Source: a virus
DNA: 23,971 bases
IMG/VR virus record: IMGVR_UViG_3300032241_000305
Location: 1 to 23,971 of that record
Reading direction: 5' to 3' (one strand)
The translations under genes were made by a program, and so were the position numbers. Positions 1,845-12,266 of this stretch are shown piece after piece (positions within the stretch are counted from its first letter, which is position 1; each line of letters begins with the position of its first letter). The notes beneath the pieces are model-generated. The model had not been told where the DNA came from and searched no databases. It was given only the letters and a program-made list of their open reading frames with translations.

Positions 1845-1852
1845 TATTTATT
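1845..1852 (-). promoter_or_regulatory. Late promoter octamer AATAAATA upstream of the 209-residue gene
   Basis: AATAAATA matches the T4 late consensus TATAAATA at 7 of 8 positions. It lies 18 nt before the ATG at 1826, leaving a predicted leader of about 12 nt. It overlaps the last codons of the gp16 gene, so it is an internal promoter within the head/packaging series. Confidence 0.55.
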
Positions 1853-3148: not shown

Positions 3149-4408
3149 TTAAAAGTCAAAACTGTAATCGTCTGTGCTACCAGAATCAAAATTGCTGCTA
3201 GGATTATTATCAGTGCCTGTGCCTGCATCTTGATTCCATGGCCCTGCTTCATCAAATCCGCCAGCATTATTTTCTGACTGTGCCGCAGCAATTTGATCTT
3301 GTGTGTTTGCATCTTCAACTGCTTGTTGATTTGCATCTTCAGTAGATTGTGTTGTATCCTCTTCTTCAGATGATGGATCGTCTCCTTCGTTAGCTGAGTC
3401 TGTTCCAGTTGTGCCAGCTTCAGTATTGCTAGAATCAGTTTTATTAGCGCCTGGGAAGGAGAATCCTGAAAGTCCGCTGACAGCACTGCCTATTAGACTA
3501 GCAACACCTTTAATTGCTGCACCTATCAATGGAGCAGCGGCCGCGCCCACAGCTGCACCCACTACCAGACCGTTTGCACTTTGATAATTGTTCACTGTAT
3601 TAAGTGCATTTCCTAGTATACCTGGTCCTAGTAAATTGCCAATACTTATGCCAGCAAGACTAGGACTGTTGCCGCTTGTGCCGCCACCTAGTGGACTAGG
3701 ATGATGATCGTAGTGACTTTGTGCAAATCCTTCTGGATTTCCATCTTCCACAGCTCCTGTTTCGTAACTGATAGCTTCGTATTCAATTTTCATGTCTACA
3801 TCGTGCACGCCGGGTCCTGCATAATCGACTCGATTATGATTAAAACTTTTTACAATTGGATTCCATACTTGATACATTACGTATTCGTGGCGAGCCATTT
3901 GATAAATCTTAATATAATTTAAAAATGGAGTTGTGCTACCGTTATCTAACCCATAAGGCACCGGCATGGCTAGGCTATAAGACTTAGTTGCATTTCTAGA
4001 ATAGGCACCTGGCGCGGTTGCACTCAAAGGATCGGCATAATAATAACTATAGTAGGATTGCCATAGTTGGTTAATTAATCCCATGTTATCGTCATGAAAT
4101 TTAATACCTATTTCTCCGCCTTTATGACGATACTGTGTTACTTTTCTTCGATTATATTGATTTAGTGTTTGTGTTTCTACAGTATAACTTGGTAAATCAA
4201 TACTCTTGACCAACATGCCTATTTCTTCTCCATAGGCTTGCACTAGCTGTGCATTTTGCAATGCAGCACGATTTATACCAAACGCCACGTGAAATAAGAA
4301 CTGGTGCTTAGGTGCTAGCCTAAATTGATCAACATTGAACAAATGATCAGCATGTTGCTGATCTCGTAAAATAGTCGATCCTGTATTATTAAAATTGTAT
4401 GAGGCCAT
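3149..4408 (-). CDS. Tail-tube-fold structural protein (gp54/gp19-type) with long acidic tail
   Basis: A 419-residue protein. Residues about 30-220 look like the beta-barrel fold shared by T4 tail tube gp19 and the tube initiators gp54/gp48: a membrane-free strand FLFHVAFG, then VKSIDLPSYTVET, a basic strand pair ending KFHDDN, a YYSYYYADP loop, IKIYQMARHEYVMY, and the closing strand EYEAISYETGAVE. The last recalls the FAYRVMQAGAVD element of gp54. Residues about 275-318 are Ala/Gly/Val-rich and hydrophobic. Residues 324-419 are Asp/Glu/Ser/Thr/Asn-rich and contain no Lys or Arg, so they are almost certainly disordered. It follows the gp19 terminator and has its own late promoter, whose octamer ends 5 nt before the ATG with no Shine-Dalgarno sequence, predicting a leaderless mRNA. 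A baseplate tube-initiator role is my best guess; other tube-like roles are possible. Confidence 0.75.
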   Translation of the reverse strand: MASYNFNNTGSTILRDQQHADHLFNVDQFRLAPKHQFLFHVAFGINRAALQNAQLVQAYGEEIGMLVKSIDLPSYTVETQTLNQYNRRKVTQYRHKGGEIGIKFHDDNMGLINQLWQSYYSYYYADPLSATAPGAYSRNATKSYSLAMPVPYGLDNGSTTPFLNYIKIYQMARHEYVMYQVWNPIVKSFNHNRVDYAGPGVHDVDMKIEYEAISYETGAVEDGNPEGFAQSHYDHHPSPLGGGTSGNSPSLAGISIGNLLGPGILGNALNTVNNYQSANGLVVGAAVGAAAAPLIGAAIKGVASLIGSAVSGLSGFSFPGANKTDSSNTEAGTTGTDSANEGDDPSSEEEDTTQSTEDANQQAVEDANTQDQIAAAQSENNAGGFDEAGPWNQDAGTGTDNNPSSNFDSGSTDDYSFDF

Positions 4409-4413
4409 AACTT

Positions 4414-4421
4414 TATTTATC
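4414..4421 (-). promoter_or_regulatory. Late promoter octamer GATAAATA, leaderless spacing
   Basis: GATAAATA matches the T4 late consensus at 7 of 8 positions. Exactly 5 nt (AAGTT) separate it from the ATG at 4408. Since T4 late transcription starts about 6 nt after the octamer, the first transcribed base would be the A of the start codon. No Shine-Dalgarno sequence is present. Confidence 0.7.
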
Positions 4422-4461
4422 GGAAAAAATAAAGTACGTAGTTAACTAATTGAGATAATAA

Positions 4462-4479
4462 AACCCACCTAAGTGGGTT
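4462..4479 (-). terminator. Intrinsic terminator after the tail tube gene
   Basis: A perfect 7-bp stem (AACCCAC / GTGGGTT) with a 4-nt loop begins 6 nt after the gp19 stop. On the minus strand it runs into an AT-rich stretch (TTTTATTAT). It lies between gp19 and the next gene's own late promoter, so it would terminate or attenuate the abundant gp18-gp19 transcript. Confidence 0.72.
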
Positions 4480-4485
4480 CTACTA

Positions 4486-5115
4486 TTAACTACCTAGAAC
4501 ACTAGTTCCGCCTGGGAATTTCTGTACTGTTTGAACTGCACCAACACCATTACTTGGAGTTGTTTGTAGTGCATTGTCATATCTGATACTTAAATCAATC
4601 ATAACTGGACCATTTTCACTATATTTTAGATCGTTATAGTTAGATGATTCAATGTAGCAACCATAAACTTCCCACACTTCTAAACTTGTAGGAGTTGTTG
4701 AGCCGTTGCCACCGTCTAGCATTTCAATACGCATAGTAAACTTGTAATCCAAGCCACTAGCTGCACTACTTTGTTCGAAGAAGTCAAATTGTTTCTGAAT
4801 TTGTTCGCCGACTAAGGTAGTAACTGCATTAGTAGCATCGTCACGTAGTTTAACTGTGATTGGTTGCCATTCTGGTTTACCGGCATAGTTGATTTTACTG
4901 TTGTAAACGTCAATAACTGTGTTTGTAAACTTAACGTTTGGACGGACAGTTTCTTGAACTTGTTTTGTTAGTTCAGTAGTGCTGCCGCTTGTGCCAAAGT
5001 TTTCAAAGCTGAGTCTGAAACGATACTTCAGTTTAGGCATTAACATACCCTGACTGCTTGCGCTTTGGTCAGATGCTAATGGTACTGTAAAATTTGATAG
5101 AGCTGCGATTGCCAT
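4486..5115 (-). CDS. 19: Tail tube protein gp19
   Basis: A 209-residue protein, somewhat longer than T4 gp19 (163 residues), which stacks as hexameric rings to form the inner tail tube through which DNA passes. Recognisable elements are the LMPKLKYRFRLSFENFG strand (residues about 25-41), KFTNTVIDVYNSKINYAGKPEW (about 61-82), the ITVKLRDD strand, a central helix region VGEQIQKQFDFFEQ, EVWEVYGCYIES, and the closing strand IDLSIRYDNA. The first and last match the tube-fold signature strands. Translation should be efficient: AGGAG lies 7 nt before the ATG. The gap after gp18 is 14 nt, and a terminator hairpin follows immediately. Sheath and tube are therefore co-expressed from the TATAAATA promoter upstream of gp18, as expected for the two major tail components. 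Confidence 0.93.
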   Translation of the reverse strand: MAIAALSNFTVPLASDQSASSQGMLMPKLKYRFRLSFENFGTSGSTTELTKQVQETVRPNVKFTNTVIDVYNSKINYAGKPEWQPITVKLRDDATNAVTTLVGEQIQKQFDFFEQSSAASGLDYKFTMRIEMLDGGNGSTTPTSLEVWEVYGCYIESSNYNDLKYSENGPVMIDLSIRYDNALQTTPSNGVGAVQTVQKFPGGTSVLGS

Positions 5116-8881: not shown

Positions 8882-8889
8882 TATTTATA
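8882..8889 (-). promoter_or_regulatory. Perfect T4-type late promoter TATAAATA for gp18-gp19
   Basis: An exact match to the T4 late-promoter octamer, 32 nt upstream of the gp18 ATG. The predicted leader of about 27 nt contains GGAGA at 8857-8861, 7 nt before the start. It is the only exact 8/8 match of the seven late octamers, and it drives the two most abundant tail proteins. Confidence 0.8.
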
Positions 8890-8920: not shown

Positions 8921-8963
8921 TATGAAAAGGTTTTAAAAGGCCAGGTTTTCGTTAAATATATGC

Positions 8964-9299
8964 ATGAGACCACTATGCAGTTGCGGTATGCGCCCTACCG
9001 CTGTTAACTACAAAAAGAATGGAAAAACATTCTACAGAAGTATGTGCAACACTTGTTTAAAGCAAGGTGTTAATGCTGGAGTGCCTAAATGGTTCTTGTC
9101 AGGGTATAGGCCCAAGAGCCAATGTGATAAATGCGGATTTAAAAGTCCGCATAGAGAAGTGTTTACTGTGTTTCATGTGGACGGCGAACTGAATAATTGC
9201 CGTCCTGCTAATTTAAAAACTGTATGTGCGAACTGTGCTCGTGTTCTGCACAAGGAAGGTATTAAATGGCGACAGGGAGATCTCGTTCCAGATTTATAA
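8964..9299 (+). CDS. Zinc-binding HNH-endonuclease-like protein
   Basis: A 111-residue Cys-rich protein. The N-terminal half carries Cys pairs (C5-x-C7 and C28-x2-C31); the C-terminal half has C54-x2-C57 and C88-x2-C91. Between the latter lies VFHVDG (H71, D73) followed by NNCRPANL (N83). This is the layout of an HNH/His-Me-finger nuclease, in which H71 would be catalytic and the four C-terminal cysteines would hold a structural zinc. The final His normally next to the last CxxC is not in the usual place (CARVLH), so activity is uncertain. I recall close relatives as small conserved proteins in cyanophages. It lies alone on the plus strand between gp18 and dNMP kinase, and its 3' end overlaps the convergent kinase gene by 38 nt. 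No clear promoter is visible; AAAGG-type sequences lie about 25-35 nt upstream. Confidence 0.8.
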   Translation: MRPLCSCGMRPTAVNYKKNGKTFYRSMCNTCLKQGVNAGVPKWFLSGYRPKSQCDKCGFKSPHREVFTVFHVDGELNNCRPANLKTVCANCARVLHKEGIKWRQGDLVPDL

Positions 9300-9968: not shown

Positions 9969-9978
9969 GAAATTTCTT
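9967..9978. repeat. 12-bp perfect palindrome at the gp13 stop / dNMP kinase -35 box
   Basis: AAGAAATTTCTT is a perfect palindrome overlapping both the gp13 termination codon and the edge of the -35 element of the dNMP kinase promoter. It could be an operator, but AT-rich palindromes of this size also occur by chance. Confidence 0.3.
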
Positions 9979-10762
9979 AGCCAAGAACAAAATAATAGCC
10001 CGAACCGCCAGCAGTATAGTCCATTAATTCTTTGTCTAATTTTTCAATTTCTTCTTTACCGGCACTTAAGAGTGCTGTACCATTTAGTGTAATTGGGCTT
10101 TGCGGACCTGCTATGCTTGCAAACTTACTACGTGCTTCGCCTAGAATCAGTTTAGTTGTTGCCAATGTATAATCTTTGAGCCATTGCTTGGCATAAACAT
10201 CTTGTAGCAATACCCAATCTGGGCGGAAGTTGTAGCATTGTACTAGTATTTGTTCGCCTTGGGCAAACGGACGTTGTAGTATAGTTAAGATATGGCTAGT
10301 AGGTTTCCATTTAAATTCAATATAACTACCAAACATACGGCCTACTAGTTTTTGATATCCAGCAAAAGCGTCGTACGTTGCCAAGCCGCCCATCATGCTT
10401 CCACTCATTAGATAAGTGTTAGTATAAGCTAGATTAAACGGTTCAAATAGCGTACCACCCGCACCAATTCCACTTCTTGAGCCAATAGCTCTACGAAATA
10501 CTTGACGCACTTCGATAACTTCATCAGGTAATCTATATTCATTTTGATCCTGTATTAGCTCAAGGAACATGTAGCTTTCTTCTACACTGTTAGGACTACG
10601 TTGACGATAACGATTTAGTGCACGATCTAATGCTGTTTCAACGTGTATAGGATCTAGTTCTAGATCAATCATACCGTCGCCCAGCATGGTTTTTACATAC
10701 TGAAATACATGATTTCGTTCAGCTGTACTATTGCTTTGTGTACTTGGTGCCTTATCGTCCAT
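9977..10762 (-). CDS. 13: Neck protein gp13-like (head-tail connector)
   Basis: A 261-residue protein matching T4-like gp13, one of two neck proteins joining the portal vertex to the tail. Family features include an N-terminal helical part with a VETALDRALNRYRQRSPNSVEE pattern, a strand EYRLPDEVIEVRQVFRR, a PF-containing loop, the WLKDYTLATTKLILGEARSKF helix near residue 200, and the GPxxPITLNGTALL segment. I chose the ATG at 10762 over one 33 nt upstream because AGAGGAAC precedes it at good spacing, and a GATAAATA late promoter lies 17 nt upstream. The upstream ATG would begin before the promoter octamer. The gene is transcribed divergently from the gp14-like gene, whose promoter lies only a few bases away. 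A 12-bp palindrome covers its stop codon. Confidence 0.87.
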   Translation of the reverse strand: MDDKAPSTQSNSTAERNHVFQYVKTMLGDGMIDLELDPIHVETALDRALNRYRQRSPNSVEESYMFLELIQDQNEYRLPDEVIEVRQVFRRAIGSRSGIGAGGTLFEPFNLAYTNTYLMSGSMMGGLATYDAFAGYQKLVGRMFGSYIEFKWKPTSHILTILQRPFAQGEQILVQCYNFRPDWVLLQDVYAKQWLKDYTLATTKLILGEARSKFASIAGPQSPITLNGTALLSAGKEEIEKLDKELMDYTAGGSGYYFVLG

Positions 10763-10779: not shown

Positions 10780-10787
10780 TATTTATC
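10780..10787 (-). promoter_or_regulatory. Late promoter octamer GATAAATA for gp13
   Basis: GATAAATA lies 17 nt before the chosen gp13 ATG. The predicted short leader contains GAGGAAC as ribosome-binding site. It lies 5 nt from the opposing octamer on the plus strand, forming a compact divergent late-promoter pair. Confidence 0.72.
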
Positions 10788-10792
10788 TGTAC

Positions 10793-10800
10793 CATAAATA
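10793..10800 (+). promoter_or_regulatory. Late promoter octamer CATAAATA, leaderless spacing
   Basis: CATAAATA ends exactly 5 nt (CTAGT) before the ATG at 10806, and no Shine-Dalgarno sequence can fit. If transcription starts 6 nt beyond the octamer, as at T4 late promoters, the mRNA begins at the start codon. It drives the gp14-like, gp15 and Nudix genes. Confidence 0.72.
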
Positions 10801-10805
10801 CTAGT

Positions 10806-12266
10806 ATGCCACGCTTATCACTTTATAAACCCGAAAAAGGGCAAGATTACAAATTTATTGACAGACAAGTGTCTGAAATGTTCCAAGCTGGAGGTACTGA
10901 TCTCTACTGGCACAAGTATCTTGGATCCAACAACGATCCTTCAATGGCCACAGCAGATAAACCTGCTTATGCCAATACCAATCCAGCCAATATACAAGAT
11001 TTGTTGTTGTTGGAAAATCGTGATAGAACCTACGATAAGGAAATTTATCGTATTCGTGGAATCTATAATGTACAAAATATTGACTTTAATCTTAGCCAGT
11101 TTGGCCTGTTTATTGACAACGATACTCTGTACATGGAAATACATATTAATGATTTTGTCAAATATGTAGGCCGCAAACCTATAACTGGAGATGTTATAGA
11201 ATTACCGCACCTACGTGATGAATTTGCCTTAAACGATTATAACATTGCTTTACCACGTTACTATACTGTAGAAGATGTAGGGCGTGCTAGCAACGGGTTT
11301 AGTGTTACTTGGTTTGCACACATATATCGTTTAAAACTTAAACGTATCTTTGATAGTCAACAGTTTGCTCAGATATTTGATGCGGCAGCAACTGACGAAA
11401 ACGGTGATCCAACTAATCAAACACTACGTGATGCTCTAAGTATGTATAATCAAGAGTTGGCTATTAACGATCAAGTAGTAGCACAAGCTGAAGCTGATGC
11501 GGCCAAAAGCGGCTACGAAACTCGTCAGTTTTATACACTGGCTGTAGATGACACTAATGGTAGAACTGTTATTCAAACAGCTGATCAAGATACTATAGAT
11601 GCTAGTGTCGCTAGTCAGCTAGCTTCAGGTACTTACGGTGTAGGACAAAAAACAGGCTATCAAGGTTATCTAGTAGGTGATGGATATCCTGTTAACGGCT
11701 TGGCGTTTGGTTTTGGGGTTAACTTTCCTGCCAATCCAGGTGCAGATGATTTCTTTCTAAGATTAGATTTTTTACCTAATAGATTATTTAGATTTGATGC
11801 AACACTCAATACATGGATTGCTGTAGAAGATGCTGTACGCATGACTATGACACAGACTGATACAAGAGCTACGCAGAAAACAGGATTTATTAACAATACC
11901 AATTGGACATATAACGATGTTGTTGCTACTGATTATATCACAGCTACATCAGGACAAACTGTTATAAGAACACAAATTGATAGCGGTATTACAGCACCGT
12001 ATCTTGTGTTTAAACTCGACTCATCGGTTCCTGGTGTAACATTGATAGATTTTGAAACTGCATTATATCAAACATTGTTTTCAACGTATGTATACACAGA
12101 TGGTAACGGTGTTACTAGTAATAAATTACAAATTAATTTACCTGTAATTGATCAAATTCAACAGATATTACCATATGATGGTCAATGGGCAATAACTCTC
12201 TATAACTACAGAGAAGCACAACGTCAAAGTCTTAGCAAGGCTCTTAGACCTAAAGCAGATTTTTAA
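10806..12266 (+). CDS. Neck/connector structural protein, probable gp14 equivalent
   Basis: A 486-residue protein starting MPRLSLYKPEKGQDY. An upstream ATG in the same frame (10731) would begin inside the oppositely oriented gp13 gene and before the promoter, so I reject it. Conserved-looking stretches are FIDRQVSEMFQAGGTDLYWHKYLG (16-39), NIQDLLLLENRDR (62-74), IRGIYNVQNIDFNLSQFGLF (83-102) and GDVIELPHLRD (128-138). I recall these from aquatic T4-like phage proteins placed next to gp13 and gp15. GDVIELP parallels a GDLIYFP-type motif I recall in T4 gp14 (256 residues). Residues about 301-345 hold a DDFFLRLDFLPNRLFRFD / WIAVED module. Position between gp13 and gp15 supports a neck role, but identity with gp14 is inferred. 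The late promoter ends 5 nt before the ATG, predicting a leaderless mRNA. Confidence 0.72.
   Translation: MPRLSLYKPEKGQDYKFIDRQVSEMFQAGGTDLYWHKYLGSNNDPSMATADKPAYANTNPANIQDLLLLENRDRTYDKEIYRIRGIYNVQNIDFNLSQFGLFIDNDTLYMEIHINDFVKYVGRKPITGDVIELPHLRDEFALNDYNIALPRYYTVEDVGRASNGFSVTWFAHIYRLKLKRIFDSQQFAQIFDAAATDENGDPTNQTLRDALSMYNQELAINDQVVAQAEADAAKSGYETRQFYTLAVDDTNGRTVIQTADQDTIDASVASQLASGTYGVGQKTGYQGYLVGDGYPVNGLAFGFGVNFPANPGADDFFLRLDFLPNRLFRFDATLNTWIAVEDAVRMTMTQTDTRATQKTGFINNTNWTYNDVVATDYITATSGQTVIRTQIDSGITAPYLVFKLDSSVPGVTLIDFETALYQTLFSTYVYTDGNGVTSNKLQINLPVIDQIQQILPYDGQWAITLYNYREAQRQSLSKALRPKADF

Follow-up and report, generated by a model that had tools for sequence, protein, structure and literature searches.

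Leaderless late mRNAs as a probable conserved class in a clade of large freshwater T4-like phages

Introduction

In E. coli and related bacteria, leaderless mRNAs are usually regarded as rare or stress linked. Among phages, the lambda cI mRNA starts at its AUG, as we infer for the late mRNAs described here; in lambda, however, this concerns one regulatory gene, whereas here late virion genes throughout a clade are predicted to be involved. A larger supply of initiator tRNA strongly favors the lambda cI mRNA (PMC9031893). The Thermus phage phiYS40 makes leaderless middle and late mRNAs, described as aided by changed levels of IF2 and IF3 (PMC3594737). In the Deinococcus-Thermus genes with a "-10 region adjacent to ORF," the start codon follows immediately on a -10 element, which gives a leaderless mRNA (PMC12340547); these genes are cellular and use host promoters, whereas the clade studied here uses a phage late octamer.

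In phage T4, late promoters depend on gp55, gp33, and gp45 and carry the octamer TATAAATA, the first base of which is numbered -13 in a review of T4 late transcription, so that the octamer spans -13 to -6 (PMC2988020). The octamer and the logic of its position are common to T4 and our clade. T4 has no late gap of 4 to 5 nt between octamer and ATG (its gaps were at least 12 nt in the present analysis), whereas about a third of the late promoters in the clade leave no room for a leader. Like phiYS40, the clade appears, judging from sequence, to express late phage genes from leaderless mRNAs; phiYS40, however, infects Thermus, whereas the clade has a gp55-type promoter and leadered and leaderless late mRNAs that coexist by gene family. 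We know of no T4-type late octamer in phiYS40. A search of the open-access literature, outside which most subscription papers lay, returned no prior report of a leaderless class in gp55-type phages.

Results

Late promoters of the window and its relatives

The window, i.e., the whole 24-kb viral record that was analyzed (IMGVR_UViG_3300032241_000305), is a member of a clade of large freshwater T4-like phages with a gp55-type late sigma factor. The gp55 homologue (phrog_234, E ~1e-25) is encoded by its relatives G001, G003, G007, G008, and G009 rather than by the window. No close DNA relative of the window was found among cultured phages; by protein, the closest cultured relatives are Agrobacterium phage Atu_ph07, Sinorhizobium phage Phosso, PA5oct, and RaK2-type jumbo phages. 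We fetched 53 relatives for the gp14-like gene and 80 for the tail-tube paralogue. Spacing was counted in G001 (a 345-kb relative), in G007 (a 364-kb relative kept as a hold-out and unused until its own spacing was counted), and in seven outgroup phages (T4, Syn9, Atu_ph07, Phosso, RaK2, P-SSM2, and PA5oct).

The initial annotation had picked out two octamers that end 5 nt before an ATG, one at the gp14-like gene and one, on the other strand, at the tail-tube paralogue, and the sequence bears this out (Table 1). It also bears out the placement of the other five octamers (NATAAATA) 17 to 32 nt upstream, with measured gaps of 17, 18, 20, 22, and 32 nt. The gene at 8964 is an additional short-gap case that the annotation did not contain; its 111-aa cysteine-rich product had no Pfam match. 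The label "gp14-like" is based on phrog_11591 and on gene order, the flanking genes being a gp13-type adaptor and a gp15-type sheath stabilizer; a direct match to T4 gp14 was not found. The gp13 and gp14 octamers lie back to back at 10780 to 10800, 5 nt apart, and abut (TATTTATCGCTAAATA) in some relatives. The gp13 member of this pair is leadered with a Shine-Dalgarno (SD) sequence and the gp14 member is in the leaderless position; simultaneous occupancy of the two octamers is hardly possible.

Table 1. Late-promoter octamers and associated features of the window, in order of position
Feature	Position	Strand	Basis or remark
Octamer AATAAATA, gene 1197-1826; leadered, gap 18, weak SD	1845..1852	-	40/40 homologues gap 12-21, 34 at 18
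Tail-tube paralogue gene, predicted leaderless; first ORF past terminator-like hairpin	3149..4408	-	
5-nt spacer AAGTT, predicted transcription start at A of ATG 4408	4409..4413	-	Sequence; base before ATG
Late-promoter octamer GATAAATA, tail-tube paralogue	4414..4421	-	Sequence; kept in 51 distinct homologues
Terminator-like hairpin after upstream tube gene, just before the predicted leaderless promoter	4453..4490	-	Folding: -18.3 kcal/mol, z -5.3; T-rich tail
Octamer TATAAATA, tail sheath gene; leadered, gap 32, SD	8882..8889	-	43/43 homologues leadered
Variant octamer GTTAAATA of third predicted leaderless gene	8951..8958	+	Then TATGC, ATG 8964
111-aa cysteine-rich protein gene, predicted leaderless, gap 5	8964..9299	+	Homologue conservation
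gp13-like head-tail adaptor gene (phrog_211), leadered contrast	9977..10762	-	
Octamer GATAAATA, gp13-like gene; leadered, gap 17, SD GAGGA; divergent from gp14-like promoter	10780..10787	-	Sequence
Late-promoter octamer CATAAATA, gp14-like gene	10793..10800	+	Sequence; kept in homologues
5-nt spacer CTAGT, predicted transcription start at A of next ATG	10801..10805	+	T4 numbering, octamer -13..-6 (PMC2988020); pyrimidine before ATG
gp14-like neck/virion structural gene (phrog_11591), predicted leaderless	10806..12266	+	Atu_ph07, Phosso homologues start at aligned ATG

Genome-wide spacing

How are late octamers spaced across whole genomes? The gaps between octamer and ATG in G001 are bimodal, with 13 at 4 to 5 nt, 2 at 6 to 8, none at 9 to 13, and 34 at 14 to 32 nt. 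The held-out G007 has 14, 2, 1, and 21 gaps in the same four ranges, and the spacing in smaller contigs of the clade agrees with G001. No gene with a gap of 4 to 5 nt was found in T4, Syn9, Atu_ph07, Phosso, or RaK2; P-SSM2 has one and PA5oct two. Pooled, short gaps make up 27/82 in G001 and G007 vs. 3/157 in the seven outgroups (3 short against 154 leadered; Fisher P ~2e-11). Roughly 28 to 40% of late promoters in the clade are without room for a leader. An octamer at gap 0 before a 220-aa gene of G001 and G003 (MNVQLLSYSQPT) was left out of the leaderless count.

The placement of the octamer near ATG exceeds chance. Across the window and four relatives, ATAAATA occurs at a gap of 4 to 5 nt before ATG 26 times, whereas each of 20 rearranged versions of the motif gives 0 to 8 occurrences at that distance, though these versions are commoner overall; the highest of these control counts, 8, belongs to TAAATAA, which overlaps the real motif. 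Predicted 5' mRNA folding did not separate the classes, leaderless and leadered starts being about equally unstructured.

Leaderless and leadered gene families

At what level is the trait partitioned? Based on 279 distinct octamer-headed genes of the clade, the leaderless or leadered class is, as far as sequence can tell, inherited by gene family. The families predicted to be leaderless are the gp14-like neck gene, the tail-tube paralogue, a ~820-aa virion protein, and the 111-aa Cys-rich protein. Nearly all relatives of the gp14-like gene, to ~45% identity, have the octamer or GCTAAATA 5 to 8 nt before the ATG, and the gap is 4 to 8 nt in 22/22 distinct genes. The same range holds for the tube paralogue in 51/51 distinct genes; the starts examined have NATAAATA or a near variant almost abutting the ATG, mostly at exactly 5 nt. 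The 822-aa virion protein is at a gap of exactly 4 in 16/16. At the 111-aa gene, NNTAAATA lies at gap 4 or 5 in 42/42 distinct homologues of a first set and in 49/51 of a second, partly overlapping one, the remaining two homologues being without the motif. The identical 5-nt spacing stressed by the initial annotation is right for its two genes but is not invariable: the gap is 4 or 5 nt, and 4 to 8 in homologues of gp14. On the leadered side, the sheath gene is leadered in 43/43 distinct genes, the MKSFKEYL protein in 40/40, and gp13 in 16/18. Genes do switch class: the gp13-like and MKSFKEYL-like genes at G007 40677 and 32243 (-) have a gap of 5, although their counterparts elsewhere in the clade are leadered.

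The initial annotation had named homologues with freely varying spacing or an SD as its refuting condition; none were seen within the clade, except at three loci where gp14 is preceded by a strong SD and begins with ATT: L004, L006 (upstream of gp14), and L171:11480-12199 (G002). In G002, an ORF of 239 aa, weakly matching HNH/NUMOD3, lies between the promoter and gp14, and this ORF is itself at an octamer gap of 4. In Atu_ph07, Phosso, and PA5oct, the gp14 homologues share the aligned ATG, but an SD precedes it and the gap is 19 to 28 nt; therefore, the leaderless state looks derived in the clade.

A conserved element with a consensus of about TTCATTAACTACGCACTTTAT abuts the octamer on its upstream side in tube-paralogue promoters (window 4422-4455, -) and was not seen at gp14; possibly it is a regulator site. 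The idea that the leaderless set consists of low-copy virion parts found no support: genes in the leaderless position include enzymes (a metallophosphoesterase, a methyltransferase-like protein, and a metal-dependent hydrolase), and the leadered set includes low-copy baseplate proteins.

Predicted start of the RNA

Base composition downstream of NATAAATA at late genes points to a start at position 5 to 6, and under the T4 numbering (PMC2988020) a 5-nt gap therefore puts the A of AUG at +1; from these two lines we infer that transcription starts exactly there. At the fifth position past the octamer, 117/156 leadered promoters have a purine, presumably the initiating base, vs. 0/69 gap-5 genes; in gap-4 genes this position is the A of ATG. 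Because homologues share kinship, such counts are not independent and the per-family tests are weaker; by family, the purine is present in 35/50 leadered vs. 0/9 gap-5 cases (P 1e-4). Most simply, this may reflect avoidance of a rival start at the base just before the AUG. Homologues with a gap of 7 to 8 nt mostly have an A ~3 nt before the ATG, for an estimated leader of 3 nt. Among the genes examined at gap 4 to 5, none has a non-ATG start codon, and the longest exact SD match is 3 to 4 nt in short-gap genes vs. up to 7 nt in leadered ones.

Discussion

We consider it very likely that the gp55-type late mRNAs of the clade include a class that is leaderless and conserved. Where the octamer ends 4 to 5 nt before the ATG, RNA polymerase would start at the A of AUG; gaps of 7 to 8 nt would yield a leader of ~3 nt. 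An mRNA of this kind, without an SD, would presumably take the leaderless route, in which 70S ribosomes or an fMet-tRNA complex bind the 5'-terminal AUG directly. The octamer of the ~820-aa gene overlaps the upstream stop (TGATAAATA), so that reinitiation on read-through mRNA is possible there; many homologues of the 111-aa gene have AAAAGG ~12 nt before the ATG, which could be a poor SD on a longer transcript. The most likely benefit would be compact, self-contained expression cassettes, with translation tied to initiation at the gene's own promoter. Low output and altered ribosomes, which the initial annotation offered as purposes, are conjectural; the leaderless set is a mixture of structural proteins with enzymes. 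The earlier suggestion that this placement is under selection gains support from homologue conservation, from bimodal spacing that recurs in the hold-out genome, from purine avoidance, and from the leadered, SD-bearing genes of the outgroup, which together suggest that selection has kept it.

Is the position functional? It is possible, though in our view unlikely, that it is real but functionless: deletions between promoter and ATG would be tolerated, the host would translate 5'-AUG mRNAs adequately, and the state would merely be inherited. The functionally mixed nature of the leaderless set and the class switching of gp13-like and MKSFKEYL-like genes in G007 would fit this reading. Near-perfect retention by family and strict 4 to 5 nt spacing across ~50% protein divergence argue against it, as does the complete avoidance of purines before the ATG, which together with retention points to selection for exact placement once acquired.

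Improbable is a reading in which the octamer near the ATG is not the main start and longer, leadered transcripts from upstream are translated independently of an SD. Conserved extra elements upstream of the octamer at the tube-paralogue and 111-aa genes would fit it; homologues of the latter have AAAAGG repeats just upstream of the octamer. Read-through is, however, unlikely to supply a leader to the two genes first noted, and little upstream transcript is expected there, because gp13 and the gp14-like gene point away from each other, the latter having no nearby same-strand upstream gene, and the tube paralogue is preceded by a strong hairpin with a T-rich tail. A pattern scan for sigma-70 promoters and terminators found nothing at the tube gene (the 4453-4490 hairpin, which folding showed, went unlisted), and no SD lies at the proper distance.

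It is highly improbable that the true start codon lies elsewhere, upstream or downstream, making the short gap an annotation artifact: although a TTG at 10731 could lengthen the gp14-like frame on its upstream side, the aligned ATG is also the start, preceded by an SD, in the homologues of Atu_ph07, Phosso, and PA5oct, third codon positions are most variable right after the ATG and vary most from the first codons on, and the tube-paralogue ORF of the window is without an earlier start codon. The chance fall of two AT-rich octamers near an ATG has a negligible probability, for although ATAAATA-like words are common at 39% G+C, conservation, bimodality, the motif controls, and the hold-out genome refute it.

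Might the phages equip the host for leaderless translation? Both G001 and G007 encode bS21 and ~30 tRNAs plus tmRNA each, and G001 also encodes an initiator-like tRNA with a C1xA72 mismatch; a phage-encoded IF3 was looked for and none was found. Loci noted for the initiator-like tRNA, tmRNA, and bS21 are L158:8400-8474 (-), L159:3032-3475 (-), and L270. The bS21 of G001 is most like beta-proteobacterial bS21, a weak hint, from this similarity only, that the host may be a beta-proteobacterium. More initiator tRNA strongly favors leaderless mRNAs in E. coli (PMC9031893), and a link between the initiator-like tRNA of the phage and the leaderless class is therefore possible. We regard as rather doubtful a scheme of two-channel late translation, in which phage bS21 (G001 and G007) and the initiator-like tRNA (G001) would shift ribosomes toward 5'-AUG mRNAs late, with a fixed gene subset leaderless and the rest translated from SD sequences.

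T4-like late transcription appears to yield a stable, gene-specific leaderless class, with virion proteins among its products, while other late mRNAs of the same genome are led by an SD. Such genes would be misjudged by gene callers and expression models built on the presence of an SD. With both kinds of late mRNA side by side, the clade is a natural setting in which to study the benefits of leaderless translation.
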